A DNA stretch of 64,000 nucleotides from Hydrogenophaga sp. PBL-H3 (lineage in GTDB: Bacteria; Pseudomonadota; Gammaproteobacteria; Burkholderiales; Burkholderiaceae_C). Positions 3,565-61,681 of this stretch are shown here, piece by piece (the stretch's first letter is position 1; the number at the start of each line of letters is the position of its first letter). The position numbers were made by a program, and so were the translations under genes. Where the stretch lies: contig NZ_CP044973.1 in NCBI RefSeq assembly GCF_010104355.1, forward strand, positions 186,001-250,000, read 5' to 3'. The notes under the pieces were generated by a model. That model had not been told where the DNA came from and searched no databases. It saw only the letters and a program-made list of their open reading frames with translations.

Positions 3565-4263
3565 ATGACCATCACCATGAACCACCGGCAAGCCCAGGAG
3601 CTTGTGGACTTCTTTGGCGGCGAGGAGGCCCATGTGACCCTGGCCGACCACGAGGGCGGGCTGCGCGCCTGGTGCACGGACTACCCGGAAGAGGGTGCCG
3701 TCGACCTCGGCAGTCTGGATGACGAACTCAAACCGGGGCAAGACACCAACCTGCGGGTCAGCACGGCGTCCGGCCCCGATGACCTCGAAGCGATGAACGA
3801 CGACGCCGCGGTGCGCAGTTTCGCCCACGCCATGGCCGTGAAGCTTCAAGCCACCCGTGCCAAGGGCCGCAGCGGCTGGCGCGAGTGCTCGGGGGAAGAC
3901 CTCAGCAGGATGCTTCGCGATCTGATCGAGCGCGGCGACCCGCTGGACGTGGCCAACCTTTGCATGTTCCTGTGGTCGCTGCGCAAACCCATCTCTCCGG
4001 TGACCCCTCAGGCCTCCGTTGCGGACAAGCCAGCGCCGCGCGCGGAAAAGCCCCAGCCCGCCGATGTCGCATCGCCCGGCCCCATGGAGCCCCTGACGGT
4101 GCAAGTCGCTCGCGTCGAGTCCCAAGGCATGACGCTCACCATTCCCGCGAACTGGATGACGCGCGCGGGGCTGGAGTATGACGAGGCGGCGAGCTACACG
4201 ATCACCTTCAAGACCATGCCGGCCGCCGCGTTCGAGGCGATGGAGGAATTCGATGGCTTCTGA
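3565..4263 (+). CDS. hypothetical protein with a phage-type helical domain
   Basis: About 232 residues from the ATG at 3565. The central part (about residues 75-145) carries a pattern I remember from many phage and island proteins: an alanine-rich helix, then KGRSGW, then LSRMLRDLIERGDPLDVANL and CMFLW. A proline-rich linker follows, and the last ~50 residues look like a small beta domain. The stop overlaps the next gene's start by about 11 bases, so the two are likely co-translated. Molecular function unknown. Confidence 0.75.
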   Translation: MTITMNHRQAQELVDFFGGEEAHVTLADHEGGLRAWCTDYPEEGAVDLGSLDDELKPGQDTNLRVSTASGPDDLEAMNDDAAVRSFAHAMAVKLQATRAKGRSGWRECSGEDLSRMLRDLIERGDPLDVANLCMFLWSLRKPISPVTPQASVADKPAPRAEKPQPADVASPGPMEPLTVQVARVESQGMTLTIPANWMTRAGLEYDEAASYTITFKTMPAAAFEAMEEFDGF

Positions 4264-4876
4264 GCACACCCAGGTCAAAACCATCACCACCAGCTACGGC
4301 GCGGTGGTCGAACTGCACTTGATCGCAGGTGACGTCTACAGCTTCAACGAGTCCAACGGTGTCGTGATCGATCGGGGCTACGGCCCGCGCGTGCACCTGC
4401 AGACCGATGCCCTGGGAACACAGCCGAAGATGGGGGATTTTCTGAGTCTCATCTACAGCCTGCACCGAGACGGCTCCACGTTGGTCCTGTGCGCGGTGAA
4501 CGCGAGCAACGGACTGGTGGGCTTTGACCGAGAAAGCGCCATCGCAACACTGCAGCATGGCGCAACGGTCGAGCACAGCCGCGTGGCCATCGGGTACACG
4601 GGCGCTGGCCTCTTGACCGGCTTGCTGGGCGTCATGCTGACTGGGCTGGCAGCCGCCCTGCATCCGCCCGCCGCACTTCCATTGGCCATCTGCATGGGAC
4701 TCACCTGCGCTGCCAGCCTTACCTGGGGCTGGATCAAGCGCAAACGCGACGTGCAGGACGCAGCGCGCGACGAACTGCTGCCCCTTGTGCGCTCGATGAT
4801 CGCGCGCGCTTGCCCGCGGCCCCACGTGGCCCCCTATGGCGCCACATGCGCCGGAAACTCGCCGTCCCACGCCTGA
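4253..4876 (+). CDS. hypothetical membrane-associated protein
   Basis: About 207 residues. The ATG at 4253 has GGAGG eight bases upstream, inside the end of the preceding gene. The first ~110 residues are soluble beta-rich sequence; two hydrophobic helices follow at about residues 122-165 (GAGLLTGLLGVMLTGLAAAL and LPLAICMGLTCAASLTWGW) and then a basic, probably cytosolic tail. This looks like a bitopic hairpin anchor. No family recognised. It is co-transcribed with the gene starting at 3565 and precedes the ParB-domain gene. Confidence 0.7.
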   Translation: MASEHTQVKTITTSYGAVVELHLIAGDVYSFNESNGVVIDRGYGPRVHLQTDALGTQPKMGDFLSLIYSLHRDGSTLVLCAVNASNGLVGFDRESAIATLQHGATVEHSRVAIGYTGAGLLTGLLGVMLTGLAAALHPPAALPLAICMGLTCAASLTWGWIKRKRDVQDAARDELLPLVRSMIARACPRPHVAPYGATCAGNSPSHA

Positions 4877-4917
4877 GCAGCCCAAGCCAGCCCCGAACCA
4901 CCCTGAGACCACCACAA

Positions 4918-6233
4918 TGACCAACAAGAAAACCAACACCGCCACCACCACAACCAACACCGTCGGCGAAACCGAACTGAGCGCCGCGCCTGCAGCAACT
5001 GACCCCACCGAGGGCATGAGCGAGGAACAAAAGCAGGCACTGGCCTTGTCGCAGATGCCCGGCGTGACGCTGGTTGCGGGCTCCATTGAAAAAGCTATGG
5101 CCGACTCCGGCGCGACCCCCAGCCCACTGTGGATGGTGCCGCGCCGTCACATCCGCGTGATCGAGGGATTCAATGTGCGCATTCAGAACGCAGCACTGCA
5201 AGCCCACATCGCAAGCCTTGCCGACAGCATGCTCAGCGAGGGCTTCAAGCTCGAACACCCACTCTCGGGCTACGTGGCCCGCGAGGGCGACGAATCGATC
5301 ATCTACATCTCCGATGGGCACTGCCGCCTTCAAGGGTTCGACAAGGCCGTGGCCGAGGGCGCCGACCTTGACCGGCTGCCGGTCGTGGTCAACACACAGC
5401 AGCACGACATCGCAGAACTCTCGGTGGTGGTGGTGCGCAGCGCCACGAGCAAGCCTCTTGAGGCACTGGAGAAGGCGGCGCTGGTCAAGCGCCTGAAGCT
5501 CTACGGTTGGGACGAGAAACGCATTTCGGCGCGCTGCGGCTTCACCACCACCTACGTGCGCGACCTCCTGGCGCTGATCGAGGCCCCGGTGCAGGTGCGC
5601 GAGCTGGTCCAGGACAACAAGATCTCCGCGACCGCCGCGCTGCAGGCCATGGCCAAGCACGGCGAGAAGGCAGCCGAGAAGATCACCGAAGGGCTGCAGG
5701 CGGCGGAGGCCCGGGGCAAGACCCGCGTGACCTCCAAGTTCATGCAGGACCCCGGCGAGAAGATCATCGAGCGCTCGGGCACCGCGCTGTATGGCGTGGC
5801 GCAGGAAATCAAGGCCGACCCGGCGTTCGCCTCGTTGGAAGGCGGCCTGCGCAAGAAGCTCGAAGACCTGATCGCACAGATCGAGGACAAGCGCCAGCGT
5901 GCCCTGCAGCGCGCGAAAGACAAGGAAGATGCCACGGCCAAGGGGGCACAAACCCCAGCTGGGCAACGAAGAGGAACTGAGGGTGAGGGCGAGGGCGCCC
6001 AGGAGCAGGCGGGTGAGCCGCAAAGCGTCACGCCATCGGTGGCCACTGGCACAGAAACGGCGGACAACATGGTGGCGATTGAAGACGCGGACAAGCCAAC
6101 CGACACTGGCGATCAGCCAACCGCAGAAAACACGTCAACAGAAGGTCGTGGTGCTTCCGATGACGATGGTGAACCAGACAGCGCGTGGGTCCGGGTGCGC
6201 GGCGATGAAGAGATCGTCGAGTCGCCCTTCTGA
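4918..6233 (+). CDS. ParB/sulfiredoxin-domain protein
   Basis: About 438 residues from the ATG at 4918. After a Thr/Asn-rich N-terminus, residues about 65-170 form a ParB/Srx domain (IRVIEGFNVR, then the box ISDGHCRLQGF where classical ParB has GERRxRA). A helix-turn-helix follows (LYGWDEKRISARCGFTTTYV, about residues 195-220), then a long helical region and an acidic, low-complexity tail. No parA lies next to it, so this is more likely a ParB-related regulator or nuclease-like protein than half of a partition pair. It is distinct from the ParB-like protein inside the ICE at 20667. Confidence 0.82.
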
Positions 6234-55374: not shown

Positions 55375-55848
55375 TTAAATGGTTGCCTGCTTGAAGAACT
55401 CGTACTCGGGAATACCGCGCGACACCTTCAGCCAAAAATCCGAACGGGTCTCCTTCGTCAGCGCAGTGAGGGGCACGCCGGCGAAACGCCGGGCGGCAGC
55501 CTCCGGACTCAAACCGGCGGTGAAGCCCGCAACCCCTTGCGTGAAGTAGACGCTGCCCATCTGAACTGCAACATCCAGAATGTCACGGACTTCGCTGCCG
55601 CGAGGGTAGCGCGCGGCGCTGAGCAACGTCGAGTCGAAGATGTGGACATTGTCACCAACGCGAATGGCGGCCGAGAAGTAGGGCCAATTGGTCTCGGGGC
55701 CGTCTGCAGGCTTCTCCGTGCCATCGGCGCTGTCCGGCGATGTTGAGAAAACCGCGAACTTGAAATCGTCATGCTGGAGCAAAGCGATGGCTTGGGAACT
55801 AGCTTGGGTGGTGTTGCCTTCAAAACGGGCATAGTCAATGAAAAACAT
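55375..55848 (-). CDS. hypothetical protein of the right flank
   Basis: 157 residues read leftward from the ATG at 55848, with AGGAG upstream. Soluble, mixed composition, with a Gly-rich segment (QGVAGFTAGLSPEAAARRFA). It is the first gene beyond attR, so it belongs to the recipient replicon. Its second to fourth codons contain TTTTTCAT on the - strand, the same bases as the original Tn4371 core, but this is probably coincidence. Function unknown. Confidence 0.7.
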   Translation of the reverse strand: MFFIDYARFEGNTTQASSQAIALLQHDDFKFAVFSTSPDSADGTEKPADGPETNWPYFSAAIRVGDNVHIFDSTLLSAARYPRGSEVRDILDVAVQMGSVYFTQGVAGFTAGLSPEAAARRFAGVPLTALTKETRSDFWLKVSRGIPEYEFFKQATI

Positions 55849-56216
55849 GGAAGCTCCTGAGATGGGTTGTGGAACGTTTAAACGATGAGACGACATGTGT
55901 AGCAACCTGCATCTCGCTCACGCCACACTGATAGATGCGGCGAACCAGAGTTATTCAACTCTGTGTTTATATACAGCTTAGCCTCTGACCGGGCGGCTGT
56001 CCAATCCTGACTTGAGCGCAGATGAAACTGACCCAGATGGCCTGACAGGTCCATGAAGCCCCCCTATCCTCGGAACCACTGAAGTCACCCTGCGTGACCT
56101 CTGGTGCTGTCCGCCGCCCCCACCGGGCACCCTGCGGGCGCATTGCACCCATCAACGACTGCAAAGTCACTTTTCACCTTCAGCCCTCGGGACTTCGCGC
56201 CCGTGGGGTGTGCGGT

Positions 56217-56236
56217 CCTGAACTCACTTTCAGGAA
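56217..56236 (+). promoter_or_regulatory. hairpin enclosing the ribosome-binding site
   Basis: TCCTGAA (56217-56223) pairs perfectly with TTCAGGA (56230-56236). The AGGA in the 3' arm is the only good ribosome-binding site for the ATG at 56243, so the folded leader would hide it. The rest of 55849-56216 shows no gene. Confidence 0.65.
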
Positions 56237-56242
56237 CGACAT

Positions 56243-57214
56243 ATGAACGGCTCATTTATGGGTTTGCCCATCGGGCAGATCAACGCCCATCTCAGCGATG
56301 AGATGGTCATGCGCGTGGGTATCCCCCACCGGGGCGGCAAGCTCGCCTTCAACGCATGCACCAAGGAATATGCGGCAATGGTCTCGGCCAACGCCTTCTG
56401 GTCTCAGACCAAACAGGAATTCAGCTTCCCCGAGTACACCGACCTCAGCGAGCTCGACTTCGCCATGGACTCAGCCGGGTACGTGGCGATGCTCATGTTC
56501 AAGAAGAAGGGCAAGCAAGCTGGCATGGCCGGCATCTTCCCGTGGTCGATGTCGCAGTACGTTGAGTTCGCCACCTCTTGTGGGTCGTCCTGGTGGTCAC
56601 AACCGGACCTCTGCGTCGAGCCCGAACTGGCGGGCAGCGAAGACGAAATCCAGTTCCGCATCAAGGCCACGGCCACGCTGCTGGAAGGCGCTCTGCAGAC
56701 CCTCTATGCCTGGCAAAACGAGTTGGTGAAAACCTGCTCGGCCAGAACAATCGCCAACATGCTCAAACCACCGGTACCGGTGATTCAGGGCTGGGACGCT
56801 GCTCACTACGAGCAGAGCTTGGAACTGATGACACGTGTGTGGGAACGATGGGAGCCCTGGCTGGGCGCTCCCGCACTCATCGGGGTGGGCTCGGTATGCA
56901 GGCGCTCTCTCAAACACCCCACACACGGCCTGTACGCGGTCCTGGAGCGCTTGCGCCCGCTGATCCCTCAGACGTCACGCCTGCACCTGTTCGGGGTCAA
57001 AGGCGACTGCCTTGGAGAGATGGCGTCCAACAGCTGGATGGCATCTGCCGACAGCATGGCGTTTGACCTTGGCGCCCGCATCAAGGCGCACCAGCGCGGT
57101 CACTCTAACAGCATGGTTCATCGTTGCGCCGAGATGGATCGCTGGATGGGTGCCGCGCTCGCGCGGATCGCCACCGGCACTGACGCACGGATCGCCCGGC
57201 CGGTGACCATCTGA
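56243..57214 (+). CDS. queuine-transglycosylase-like protein (DpdA-like)
   Basis: 323 residues, soluble. Key blocks fit the TGT barrel: LDFAMDSAGYV (Asp76, where tRNA-guanine transglycosylases have DSGGF), PVIQGW (180-184), GVGSVCRR (215-221), HLFGVKG (248-254) and ASADSMAFD (268-275) with the second acidic residue. The zinc cluster of bacterial Tgt is not visible. This pattern matches DpdA-type enzymes, which insert 7-deazaguanine bases into DNA rather than tRNA. No preQ0 synthesis genes are in view, so it would depend on the host pathway. Monocistronic, with a terminator after it. Confidence 0.75.
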   Translation: MNGSFMGLPIGQINAHLSDEMVMRVGIPHRGGKLAFNACTKEYAAMVSANAFWSQTKQEFSFPEYTDLSELDFAMDSAGYVAMLMFKKKGKQAGMAGIFPWSMSQYVEFATSCGSSWWSQPDLCVEPELAGSEDEIQFRIKATATLLEGALQTLYAWQNELVKTCSARTIANMLKPPVPVIQGWDAAHYEQSLELMTRVWERWEPWLGAPALIGVGSVCRRSLKHPTHGLYAVLERLRPLIPQTSRLHLFGVKGDCLGEMASNSWMASADSMAFDLGARIKAHQRGHSNSMVHRCAEMDRWMGAALARIATGTDARIARPVTI

Positions 57215-58592: not shown

Positions 58593-59028
58593 GCGATTCT
58601 CCTGTGTTGCTCGTAGTGATGCTGGCTCTCACCGCGAGGAAGGATGAATCGTTGAGACTAGGATTGACTCAAGCTGTCCGGGTTCTTGTCGAGATTCTGC
58701 ACGCCAGCGCAACGGCCCCTTGAGTCCGCAGCGACCCTTTGAGGCCGCTGGATTTATCGTAGCGACAAATTCCTAGAACTGCAAGATGGGGCGAATCCAC
58801 GCCCCTTGATCGGCCTCAAGCAACCGATACGGGCTGAGCGAAGCGCCATGCCCTGGCCGGATTGGTTTGCACCAGGTGCGCGGCCTTCATATGATCGCGC
58901 TGACTCTGGCTTTTGCCTGTCGACTCGGCGTATGCAAAAACATCACGCTCAAGTCATTCAACTAAACCCTCGGGAACCACATTCCCTGAGGGGGTGTGGC
59001 TCCTTCGATCCATTCGGAGCATTCACAC
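58593..59028. promoter_or_regulatory. divergent intergenic region with leader hairpin
   Basis: 435 bases without a convincing gene between divergent transcripts. Near its right end CCCTCGGGAA (58967-58976) pairs with TTCCCTGAGGG (58982-58992, one bulged T). An alternative stem CCACA (58977-58981) with TGTGG (58995-58999) is mutually exclusive with it. The ATG at 59029 follows 37 bases later. Confidence 0.5.
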
Positions 59029-59958
59029 ATGACAAACAAAAACGCAAAGCGCACTGGCATGGCCAGCAGCGTGGTCAGCTATCCCGACCGAGGCCCATGG
59101 GGCAACAGCAAGTGGAGAGGCAACGCCTCTGGCCATCTCTACCGCGAGCTGTTCGAACAGGTCAAACCCAAGGTGTTCGTCGATCCCATGGTGGGCGGCG
59201 GCACCAGCATCGAAGTGGCCCAAGAGATGGGGATCGAGGCGTACGGACTGGACCTGTTCGAGGGCTTCGACGCGGTCTCGGATGACATCCTCACGAAGGT
59301 GGGCAAGCACGCCGATCTGATCGTGTCACACGCCCCTTACTCGGGCATGATTAAGTATGCTGGGCCAGGTGGAATGTGGGGCGACAAGAACGACCCCGCT
59401 GACCTCAGCCAGTGCATTGACGATGCAGACTTCCACGAGAAGATGCAAATGGTCTTGCTCAATCAGCGTAGAGCAACACGACCCGGTGGCTACTACGGGA
59501 CCCTCATCGGTGATTGGAGGCGGGGCGGAAAATACACCTGCTACATGGCCGAGATGTTGGCGCGCATGCCGTCAAACGAACTGGCTGCGGTCATCATCAA
59601 AACGCAGCACAACTGCGTGTCGGACTTCAAGTCCTACGGAGCAATGAAAATGCCCCGGATTCAACATGAGTATCTTTGCCTCTGGGAGAAGCGCTCCGTC
59701 TCAGCGGTCGTGCTTCTCTCCACGATCGTGAAGGAAGGACAGCAGCGCGTGAGTGGCACCTGGAAAAACATCGTGCGACTGGTGCTGCAAGCCCTTGGCG
59801 GTGTGGCACCTCTGGAAAAGCTGTACGCAGCCATCGCAGCGGCCGCACCCGAGCAGCTCAAAACCAACCAGCACTGGCGCGCCAAGGTTCGCCAGACACT
59901 GCAACTGCACGCAGACATCTTCCAGCGCAAGCAAGAGGGCGTCTGGGCTGTTGCCTGA
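59029..59958 (+). CDS. amino-methyltransferase-like protein with SHAPY motif
   Basis: 309 residues. Motif I is FVDPMVGGGTS (50-60), the S-adenosylmethionine site of N4/N6 amino-methyltransferases; the upstream WRGNASGHLYRELF also fits DNA methylases. Motif IV, normally (D/N/S)PP(Y/F), reads SHAPY (100-104): Ala replaces one proline. A C-terminal winged-helix-like part (WKNIVRLVLQALGGVAPLEK, WRAKVRQTLQLHADIF) could bind DNA. It may methylate replicon DNA or be catalytically altered. It follows the structured leader. Confidence 0.77.
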   Translation: MTNKNAKRTGMASSVVSYPDRGPWGNSKWRGNASGHLYRELFEQVKPKVFVDPMVGGGTSIEVAQEMGIEAYGLDLFEGFDAVSDDILTKVGKHADLIVSHAPYSGMIKYAGPGGMWGDKNDPADLSQCIDDADFHEKMQMVLLNQRRATRPGGYYGTLIGDWRRGGKYTCYMAEMLARMPSNELAAVIIKTQHNCVSDFKSYGAMKMPRIQHEYLCLWEKRSVSAVVLLSTIVKEGQQRVSGTWKNIVRLVLQALGGVAPLEKLYAAIAAAAPEQLKTNQHWRAKVRQTLQLHADIFQRKQEGVWAVA

Positions 59959-60781: not shown

Positions 60782-61681
60782 ATGTACCGCCAAATGGACT
60801 TCCGTCTGTTCGCACTCACGTTGAAGACTGTTTTTCCTGGTGCGCAACCCAATGGCACCAACGTGCGAAAACTGTTCTCGCGGTTGAACCAACAACACAA
60901 CATTGGATTGCCACCTCGGTCCATCGGTCAACGCGACGTCAGCAAGCCTGAACAGTTGCGCATTGCCACATGGTTCTCTGAGGGCCGATCCTTGCGCCTT
61001 CTGGCCAGGGGCCCTGCCGCTTGCGCATTGCTCGCTCAGCACGCCACGGCTATCCAGGCTGCACTGAATGCTGAAGCAGGCTTTGAGTTGCCACTCACCG
61101 TTGAGCACGGCGATCACGGAGTGGAACCGGTACTGATTCCGCGCGCCTATGTCATTCCTCGCATGTTGATGGGCCACGCATCGCCCAACAGCACATGGGG
61201 TGCATTTGCCAATCAAGTGGACGCGGGCGCGAAGTGGATGGAGCTTGCGGGCGAACAAGTGGCGAAGAAAATTGCCGAGGGCATCGTCACACAATGCTTC
61301 GATCTGCTGGACGCTGGCGACACGGTCAAAGGGGAACATGCCAAGCTGGTGCAAGTGCACTGGGATCGAATCACGAACAAGCTAGATACGAAAGAACGCG
61401 GTGAGAAGCGACGTGCAGCGTGTGAAGAAATCCTGGAGGCGATGGACCTGCGCGTGACCGCCATTGCCAAGCACTCCACCTACCTGTCGTCTGGTCCGAA
61501 GGGCCTTTGTGTGATGCTTCGAGACATCCGCATCACCACTCCATCGATGTTCCTCGGCGAATGGATGGTGGGGCACGAGCGCGACGCTGGAATCGGGTCG
61601 ATCCTAGAGGATGACCCTACCGCGTCCAACCGGAGCCACCAGCAATCCACGCGCAAGACCGCACGCGCGTCGGTTGGTTGA
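60782..61681 (+). CDS. hypothetical protein of a two-gene unit
   Basis: 299 residues. It has a basic N-terminus (FRLFALTLKTVFPGAQPNGT), a middle segment VEPVLIPRAYVIPRMLMGH and a helical, Lys/Glu-rich second half. I do not recognise it. Its TGA overlaps the next start as TTGA, so it is translated together with the 61678 gene. A small hairpin (CCCCT/AGGGG, 60706-60718) lies in its leader. Confidence 0.65.
   Translation: MYRQMDFRLFALTLKTVFPGAQPNGTNVRKLFSRLNQQHNIGLPPRSIGQRDVSKPEQLRIATWFSEGRSLRLLARGPAACALLAQHATAIQAALNAEAGFELPLTVEHGDHGVEPVLIPRAYVIPRMLMGHASPNSTWGAFANQVDAGAKWMELAGEQVAKKIAEGIVTQCFDLLDAGDTVKGEHAKLVQVHWDRITNKLDTKERGEKRRAACEEILEAMDLRVTAIAKHSTYLSSGPKGLCVMLRDIRITTPSMFLGEWMVGHERDAGIGSILEDDPTASNRSHQQSTRKTARASVG

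Follow-up and report, generated by a model that had tools for sequence, protein, structure and literature searches.

Base exchange of the TGT type proceeds by a covalent mechanism. Among phages, experiments have connected the DpdA proteins of 9g, CAjan and Rosebush with dG+ or dPreQ0 in DNA, and Ares is a Rosebush-like phage that was itself untried in the 2019 survey (PMC6884629). The dpdA gene of phage 9g alone in E. coli gave dPreQ0 in plasmid DNA at 0.03-0.3% of G, and 9g dpdA together with gat-queC made dG+ and gave partial EcoRI resistance, which the authors have credited to dG+ and not to preQ0 (PMC6884629). In addition, CAjan DNA with dPreQ0 was uncut by HaeIII and only partly cut by BamHI (PMC6884629).

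The largest group in the same survey, with 76 phages, is that of DpdA without preQ0 genes, and whether its DpdA is functionally divergent was left open there (PMC6884629). Among the phages with DpdA only, Mycobacterium phage Orion showed no 7-deazaguanine in its DNA, for which the authors invoke a host without preQ0, and Salmonella phage 7-11 showed a slight dADG modification (PMC6884629). The B1 phage group carries the singleton DpdA subfamily, and the report on a B1 phage found no preQ0 genes either (PMC9584339). In the open-access literature examined, we have found no report of DNA modification by any member of the singleton subfamily, and no earlier report of a plasmid-borne DpdA. Orion and Vista, the latter being compared below, are presumably both B1 phages.

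A dpdA-like gene on a conjugative plasmid

The window, that is, the whole stretch of 64,000 nucleotides that we have analysed, lies on plasmid NZ_CP044976.1 (pPBL-H3_B2-1; 319,548 bp) of the soil bacterium Hydrogenophaga sp. PBL-H3, and this plasmid is typed as conjugative MOBP/MPF_T. In the strain paper, pPBL-H3-1 is an unclassified plasmid and is termed a megaplasmid (PMC7039861). The dpdA-like gene (Table 1) starts with ATG, and its flanking genes are both on the minus strand. A trb gene cluster, made up of trbB to trbI together with a gene of the DUF2274 type, ends 1.3 kb before it. The original prediction, made from the sequence alone, had placed a DpdA/TGT-like base-exchange enzyme on a mobile replicon with no other dpd cluster gene adjacent. 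The conjugative typing and the nearby trb cluster bear out the mobility, and among 14 neighbours no dpd gene was matched by NCBIfam, which may not model every dpd gene. No other gene is annotated as dpd in the 50 kb read around dpdA, where many genes are named 'hypothetical protein'; the further dpd genes that stand beside dpdA in a bacterial dpd island are thus not found at the plasmid locus.

Upstream of dpdA, the window gene at 55375-55905 (minus strand) matches PHROG 11274, a family of unknown function, with E 4.4e-15, and a gene of this type (96%) is near dpdA in a Hydrogenophaga MAG as well.

Table 1 Features of the dpdA-like gene and its surroundings, in window positions.
Feature	Position	Strand	Basis
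dpdA-like gene, 323 aa	56243..57214	+	ORF; equals RefSeq CDS WP_236574422.1 'hypothetical protein'
AGGA, ribosome-binding-site-like, 7 nt upstream of ATG	56232..56235	+	sequence
DSAGY: D76, first catalytic-type aspartate (TGT motif DSGGF)	56468..56482	+	residue 76; invariant in A1 and A2
PDLCVEPE: D122 and E126, putative base-recognition aspartate region	56603..56626	+	correspondence to TGT LDE by eye
VIQGW: Q182 G183, putative base-binding strand (TGT motif VQGG)	56780..56794	+	residue 180
GVGSVCRR: subfamily motif	56882..56905	+	not in 9g, CAjan, Ares or Bipper DpdA or host TGT
LHLFGVKG: H248, aligned with phage 9g DpdA H196	56981..57004	+	residue 247
SADSMAFD: D270, second catalytic-type aspartate	57044..57067	+	residue 268; invariant in A1 and A2
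DNA-methyltransferase-like gene	58996..59958	+	PADLOC MTase_II, E 1.1e-11

Family membership and predicted fold

The profile search that the original prediction had proposed gave a match to Pfam DpdA (PF23859) with E 3.1e-10 and 40 bits, above the cut-off of 27, and PHROG 1279 (queuine tRNA-ribosyltransferase) was matched with E 4e-13. Judged by these profiles and by its motif GVGS[VM]CRR, the protein belongs to the PF23859/PHROG 1279 'singleton' DpdA subfamily. PF23859 is the only Pfam family reported for it, with no match to Pfam TGT (PF01702) at E up to 1, and the NCBIfam DpdA equivalog of the bacterial dpd island (NF041059) reaches 13.6 bits against a cut-off of 200. In the host genome this is the single PF23859 match, and a separate canonical TGT is on the chromosome.

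We have used two alignments, namely A1 with 27 selected sequences, from which duplicates as well as incomplete, split and weakly matching ones (L009, L012, L029, L021-L025, L027) were excluded, and A2 with 37 rows, which are the window protein and 36 of 84 related loci. Against the sequences of the PDB, the A1 profile has a sole significant match, 7ui4 'DNA-guanine transglycosylase', at E 2.3e-4, with the next at E 0.4; phmmer with the single window protein found nothing real there. The A2 profile compared with the host's single TGT sequence gave a probability of 2.4% in what is a low-power comparison, and the kinship to TGT therefore rests on structure.

The AlphaFold (AF2) model from the 37-row alignment has a mean pLDDT of 91.1 and a pTM of 0.89. 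In Foldseek against the PDB, rank 1 is 7ui4, 'DNA preQ0 insertase DpdA' (E 4.2e-7, TMq 0.47), and the other 49 of the best 50 of 183 matches at E 0.001 are TGTs with TMq 0.56-0.65; against viral models, the best match is a mycobacteriophage queuine tRNA-ribosyltransferase (E 1.2e-10). That is, the model has a TGT-like fold ranked nearest to DpdA, and not the unrelated fold on which the original prediction would have fallen. The enzyme 7ui4 is the DpdA of the Salmonella Montevideo dpd genomic island and is the best PDB match by both fold and profile, but its chain has 436 aa against 323 aa here, the identity is 15%, and the window plasmid has no dpd island. Canonical bacterial TGT (PF01702) shares the fold and the DSGGF/VQGG-type motifs with the window protein, while it differs by its zinc cluster and its Pfam TGT match, and the profile similarity between the two is weak. 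In our judgement, guanine exchange of the TGT/DpdA type is very probably what the protein carries out.

The TM-scores are higher to TGTs (about 0.6) than to 7ui4, which we have counted against a reading with DNA and preQ0. Since the fold is the same and PHROG 1279 bears the name of a tRNA-ribosyltransferase, the enzyme could be of the TGT type and act on RNA (tRNA or other), not on DNA. We consider this improbable, because the only significant PDB profile match is a DNA enzyme (the host TGT comparison being of low power), the histidine H248 that corresponds to H196 of phage 9g is present, and the neighbours of the relatives include DNA-modification and anti-restriction genes. A role on tRNA only was set aside as first choice since the host chromosome already has its own TGT with a zinc motif.

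Overall, the earlier claim that the enzyme belongs to those placing 7-deazaguanine in DNA is largely supported by the fold, the Pfam match and the aspartates, and has to be qualified as regards the Pfam name, which rests on mycobacteriophage singletons. Both PF23859 and PHROG 1279 are centred on these singletons: Beezoo scores 615 bits with PF23859, and the DpdA proteins of phages 9g and Ares have no match to it at E 0.001. Because these two are unmatched, the Pfam name DpdA is no proof of DNA modification.

Conserved residues and putative active site

All the motifs named in the original prediction, that is, DSAGY, VIQG, FGVKG and a second acidic motif, are present, at residues 76, 180, 247 and 268. 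D76, H248 and D270 are invariant in 27/27 sequences of A1 and 37/37 of A2, so that the loss of the two aspartates in homologues, which would have spoken against the prediction, is not seen. By analogy, D76 and D270 may be the two catalytic aspartates expected of a DpdA. E126 is found in all 37 rows of A2 and in 26/27 of A1, and G183, C219, R220, R221 and K253 are invariant in A2 (K253 in 25/27 of A1). Likewise, D122 and Q182 are present in 37/37 rows of A2, and in A1 the former occurs in 25/27 (L028 has G, and 9g has a gap) and the latter in 26/27 (9g has H). We take D122 and Q182 to be counterparts of the base-holding residues of TGT, and they likely form the pocket for guanine or 7-deazaguanine. 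This pocket is not fully common with the proven enzymes, because Ares is without HxFG by pattern and 9g is without equivalents of Q182 and D122 in A1. In the alignment of A1 with 7ui4, the positions of D76, D122 and D270 hold Asp in 7ui4, and those of H248 and Q182 hold His.

Hutinet et al. describe residue 196 of DpdA as a conserved histidine, which DpdA2 lacks (PMC6884629). In phage 9g, H196 opens the sequence HGFG and is aligned with H248, and thus the window protein has the DpdA histidine.

The absence of a visible zinc cluster, also part of the original prediction, holds, since the window protein contains neither CxCxxC nor CxxC; the host tRNA TGT has CTCHAC, and the CxCxxC cluster of a canonical tRNA TGT is therefore lacking here. 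A zinc-like CxxC, mostly [CH]xHxxCxNC, is present in 14/15 rows of the phage branch and in 0/23 plasmid and genome rows (the window included), and of the 13 remaining viral rows a single one has a CxxC, at another place in the protein. As the plasmid and genome rows are without CxxC and the phage branch has it, the missing zinc cluster is a feature of the plasmid side.

The singleton subfamily and its relatives

G[VIL]GS[VMF]CRR is found in 51/51 rows from the plasmids, bacterial genomes, phages and viral contigs of the group, of which 24 were found with the CRR pattern and 27 were not chosen that way. For the viral set, we have taken the best 80 of 217 relatives (217 of the 231 viral stretches matched by pattern encode one), and since these 80 loci were picked by the pattern [IV]G[VIL]GS[VM]CRR, their conservation of CRR follows from the selection itself. 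The motif is absent from all seven others compared, which are the DpdA proteins of 9g, CAjan, Ares and Bipper, the host TGT, and the PF23859 relatives G643 and G585 from bacterial genomes. The tree groups 9g, CAjan, Ares and Bipper with support in a single branch, which is long and unsure in position. It fails to part the CRR and non-CRR kinds cleanly, because G643 and G585, which are long rows and lack CRR, are placed between rows that have it.

The mycobacteriophage singleton DpdA proteins (Beezoo gp40, Vista gp20) are like the window protein in Pfam and PHROG family, and have GVGSVCRR, HxFG and the paired aspartates in common with it, but the identity is only about 25% over the aligned part, and they have the zinc-like site that the window protein is without. 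Their hosts are said to lack preQ0 (PMC6884629), whereas the Hydrogenophaga host has queC. The DpdA proteins of the 9g/CAjan/Rosebush type share with the window protein a DSGA-type motif and a second DS motif, and 9g and CAjan, but not Ares by pattern, share also the HxFG histidine. On the other hand, 9g, CAjan and Ares are without GVGS[VM]CRR and lie on a separate branch, and 9g and Ares are outside PF23859. Furthermore, 9g and Ares have preQ0 genes in their own genomes (queC-like in Ares), while in the host of the window plasmid queC is chromosomal.

Distribution and selection

Relatives were found in 89 of 72,556 plasmid records at E 1e-3 (our own included), mostly from Proteobacteria, and in 65 the match extends over at least 80% of the query. 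The leading hosts are Sphingobium (20), Sphingomonas (12) and Paraburkholderia (8), followed by Cupriavidus, Roseomonas and Streptomyces (5 each), and on some plasmids of actinobacteria the match is weak and covers the query only in part. The plasmid relatives H2 to H19 show 51-63% identity over 93-98% of the query. At the level of the order, 7 of 399 genomes match at E 0.001, with our own, G158 and G387 strong and four weak (18.8-23.2 bits), and at the level of the phylum 4 of 398 are above the Pfam cut-off, our own included. Among phage records, 94 match the window protein and 400 match the Beezoo relative, 391 of the latter being Mycobacterium phages. One viral contig (L059:7755-10529) has a 925-aa ORF in which the DpdA domain comes first and is followed by a long, partly acidic extension.

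Between the window copy and its nearest relative, that of the Hydrogenophaga MAG, dN/dS is 0.066 (210 codons), and it is 0.06-0.24 in five other pairs, with dS above 1 in four of the five. These values show purifying selection and are relevant to whether the gene is a decayed or inactive relative that is kept by hitch-hiking. Two relatives do have a split dpdA, in Cupriavidus campinensis and Paraburkholderia terrae, and the window protein is without the zinc-like CxxC that the phage branch has; yet the window copy, with dN/dS of about 0.07, has all the invariant residues, and decay would be very improbable. It was rejected as first choice on the ground of the dN/dS. The Cupriavidus campinensis plasmid copy (L029:7001-7959) lies in two reading frames.

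The link to preQ0

The host has QueC on the chromosome (E 3.3e-66), with no other QueC match in its genome, and QueC was found in none of 19 records of related plasmids. Of eight other carrier genomes, seven pass the QueC cut-off, one of them weakly (22.7 bits against 22), and one has no match; the MAGs among the carriers may be incomplete. For the six carriers with a CRR protein, QueC is clear in five and weak in one; the other two are PF23859 carriers without CRR, and QueC is present in only one of them.

In viral records, QueC was found in 2 of the 50 searched (of the 80 loci), and both times at dpdA. At L049:1470-2899, dpdA runs to 2312 and the QueC match begins at 2258, so that they overlap, and at L067:5239-6703 dpdA runs to 5985 and the match begins at 5990, adjoining it. 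Both pass the QueC equivalog TIGR00364 (175.5 and 178.7 bits, cut-off 150.3), and the order dpdA-queC is the same in the Rosebush-like phage Ares. In the tree, L049 is the sister of the window's clade, with support of 91/84, below the mark of 95/80, and L067 is among the phage rows. Searches with 9g queries, which are divergent, did not find folE, queD or queE in the loci retrieved. Through these two phage contigs, in which dpdA has a true queC as its immediate neighbour, the subfamily is tied to preQ0. We have counted against the reading with DNA and preQ0 the QueC frequencies themselves (only 2/50 viral records and 0/19 plasmids) and the 391 mycobacteriophage relatives, though mycobacteria are said to lack the pathway. 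Taken together, DNA as the substrate and preQ0 as the incoming base appear reasonably likely to us.

The same observations bear on an exchange for a base other than preQ0, or on a reverse action in which a modified guanine is removed so as to escape modification-dependent restriction. Such a role would accord with the CRR motif being absent from the DpdA proteins of 9g, CAjan, Ares and Bipper, with the relatives in mycobacteriophages, for whose hosts a lack of preQ0 is stated, as well as the matches on two mycobacterial plasmids, and with the DndC-like ATP-pyrophosphatase genes that cluster near dpdA on some plasmids. It is rather unlikely in our view, considering queC directly at dpdA in the two phage contigs and clear QueC in five of the six other CRR carrier genomes, the sixth being weak.

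Since 9g DpdA alone modifies little, a DpdA that is fed by host preQ0 may modify sparsely, and sparse modification weakens the anti-restriction reading, unless the plasmid branch is more efficient.

Neighbouring genes

No partner gene is common to the 37 loci compared; the largest groups comprise 4 loci, and a 160-aa sphingomonad gene occurs in 5. The latter was missed in the partner search because ORFs overlapping dpdA were left out. Its product of ~160 aa is conserved, and the gene lies next to dpdA, on the minus strand, in 5/5 sphingomonad plasmids read, upstream of dpdA in L036, L039, L042 and L043 and downstream in L035, and the one scanned has no Pfam match. Zincin (ArdC-type) genes are upstream of dpdA in 4/5 sphingomonad loci read, with an ArdC N-terminal domain in the one scanned (Pfam, E 1.4e-35), and a staphylococcal-nuclease-like gene is upstream in 3 sphingomonad loci. 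Plasmid leading regions are described to carry orphan methyltransferases together with anti-restriction genes, and the words transglycosylase, queuine and deazaguanine are absent from the main text of that paper (PMC11541004).

The methyltransferase-like gene in the window reaches only 11.6 bits with Pfam N6_N4_Mtase, below the cut-off of 26.7. A gene of this kind is beside dpdA also in L010 (75% identity) and L032 (54%), which with the window makes 3/37 loci.

For two further families we have compared the neighbourhood of dpdA with rotation in 20 plasmids, hand-picked from the 89 records, in which related plasmids are not independent. PAPS-reductase/DndC-like genes were within 5 kb of dpdA in 5/20 against 0.85 expected (p 0.001), and a C5 DNA methyltransferase in 3/20 against 0.45 expected (p 0.007), these p-values being optimistic because both families were chosen after having been seen near dpdA; the distances tried were 2, 3, 5 and 8 kb for the former and 2, 5 and 8.5 kb for the latter. 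On the window plasmid itself, C5 methyltransferase was not matched at all, and PAPS-reductase not within 27 kb of dpdA.

PAPS-reductase/DndC-like ATP-pyrophosphatases near plasmid dpdA genes are located at L034:5131-6915, L014:13082-14218, and L032:1540-2730 and 3948-5627. The one of L034 is DndC-like and scores 117.5 bits, where the DndC cut-off is 290. It is possible that these enzymes are partners of DpdA.

A Gabija pair is located ~7 kb downstream of the dpdA-like gene (plasmid 250157-253295, minus strand; L003:157-3295), with profile scores of 639 bits for GajB and 774 bits for GajA over nearly the full profile length. An orphan type IV Cas6 (Csf5)-like protein is encoded at window 60782-61681 (plus strand; PADLOC typeIV_Cas6, E 4.3e-8); NCBIfam csf5 gives it E 1.5e-6 and 28 bits, far below the cut-off of 150, and no CRISPR-like repeat array was found near this gene in three stretches checked.

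Bacterial Dpd systems mark self with DpdA (PMC12839542). The plasmid enzyme could accordingly mark self DNA for a plasmid-encoded defence, in the manner of a dpd-like restriction system, rather than counter restriction, and the Gabija pair and the nuclease-like gene recurring in the three sphingomonad loci would fit this. Considering that even the most recurrent neighbour of dpdA occurs in no more than 5 of the 37 loci, and that NCBIfam matched no dpd gene among the 14 neighbours, we hold such a marking function to be distinctly improbable.

Proposed function

Our preferred reading, which we favour with moderate confidence, is a stand-alone DNA-guanine transglycosylase of the DpdA type that uses host preQ0 and is probably anti-restriction. 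The enzyme would cut guanine from DNA via a covalent enzyme-DNA intermediate and would then insert preQ0 (7-cyano-7-deazaguanine), made by the chromosomal queC pathway of the host. The modified DNA would be poorly recognised by restriction enzymes, and the conjugative plasmid may thereby be helped to establish in new hosts. We give the anti-restriction benefit, which we infer from the neighbours in relatives and from phages, an even chance.

A bolder extension is that the zinc-free GVGS[VM]CRR branch of DpdA could be the writer of a small DNA-hypermodification module on plasmids of preQ0-making Proteobacteria, where a partner on some of the plasmids would alter the inserted host preQ0 and the new base would hide conjugating DNA from restriction. 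The partner may be, for instance, the methyltransferase-like gene beside dpdA or a DndC-like ATP-pyrophosphatase. This extension is speculative, and we regard it as unlikely.

The gene can be seen as a plasmid variant of the DpdA-type enzyme, and its interest is that the function of singleton DpdA is made testable. As the plasmid branch is mostly in queC hosts, where tested, this function can be addressed directly. PBL-H3 has been sequenced with PacBio (PMC7039861), and the existing reads are perhaps enough for such a test. If the preferred reading is true, conjugative plasmids would join phages and dpd islands in the use of 7-deazaguanine in DNA, which in the plasmids would serve as an anti-restriction device.
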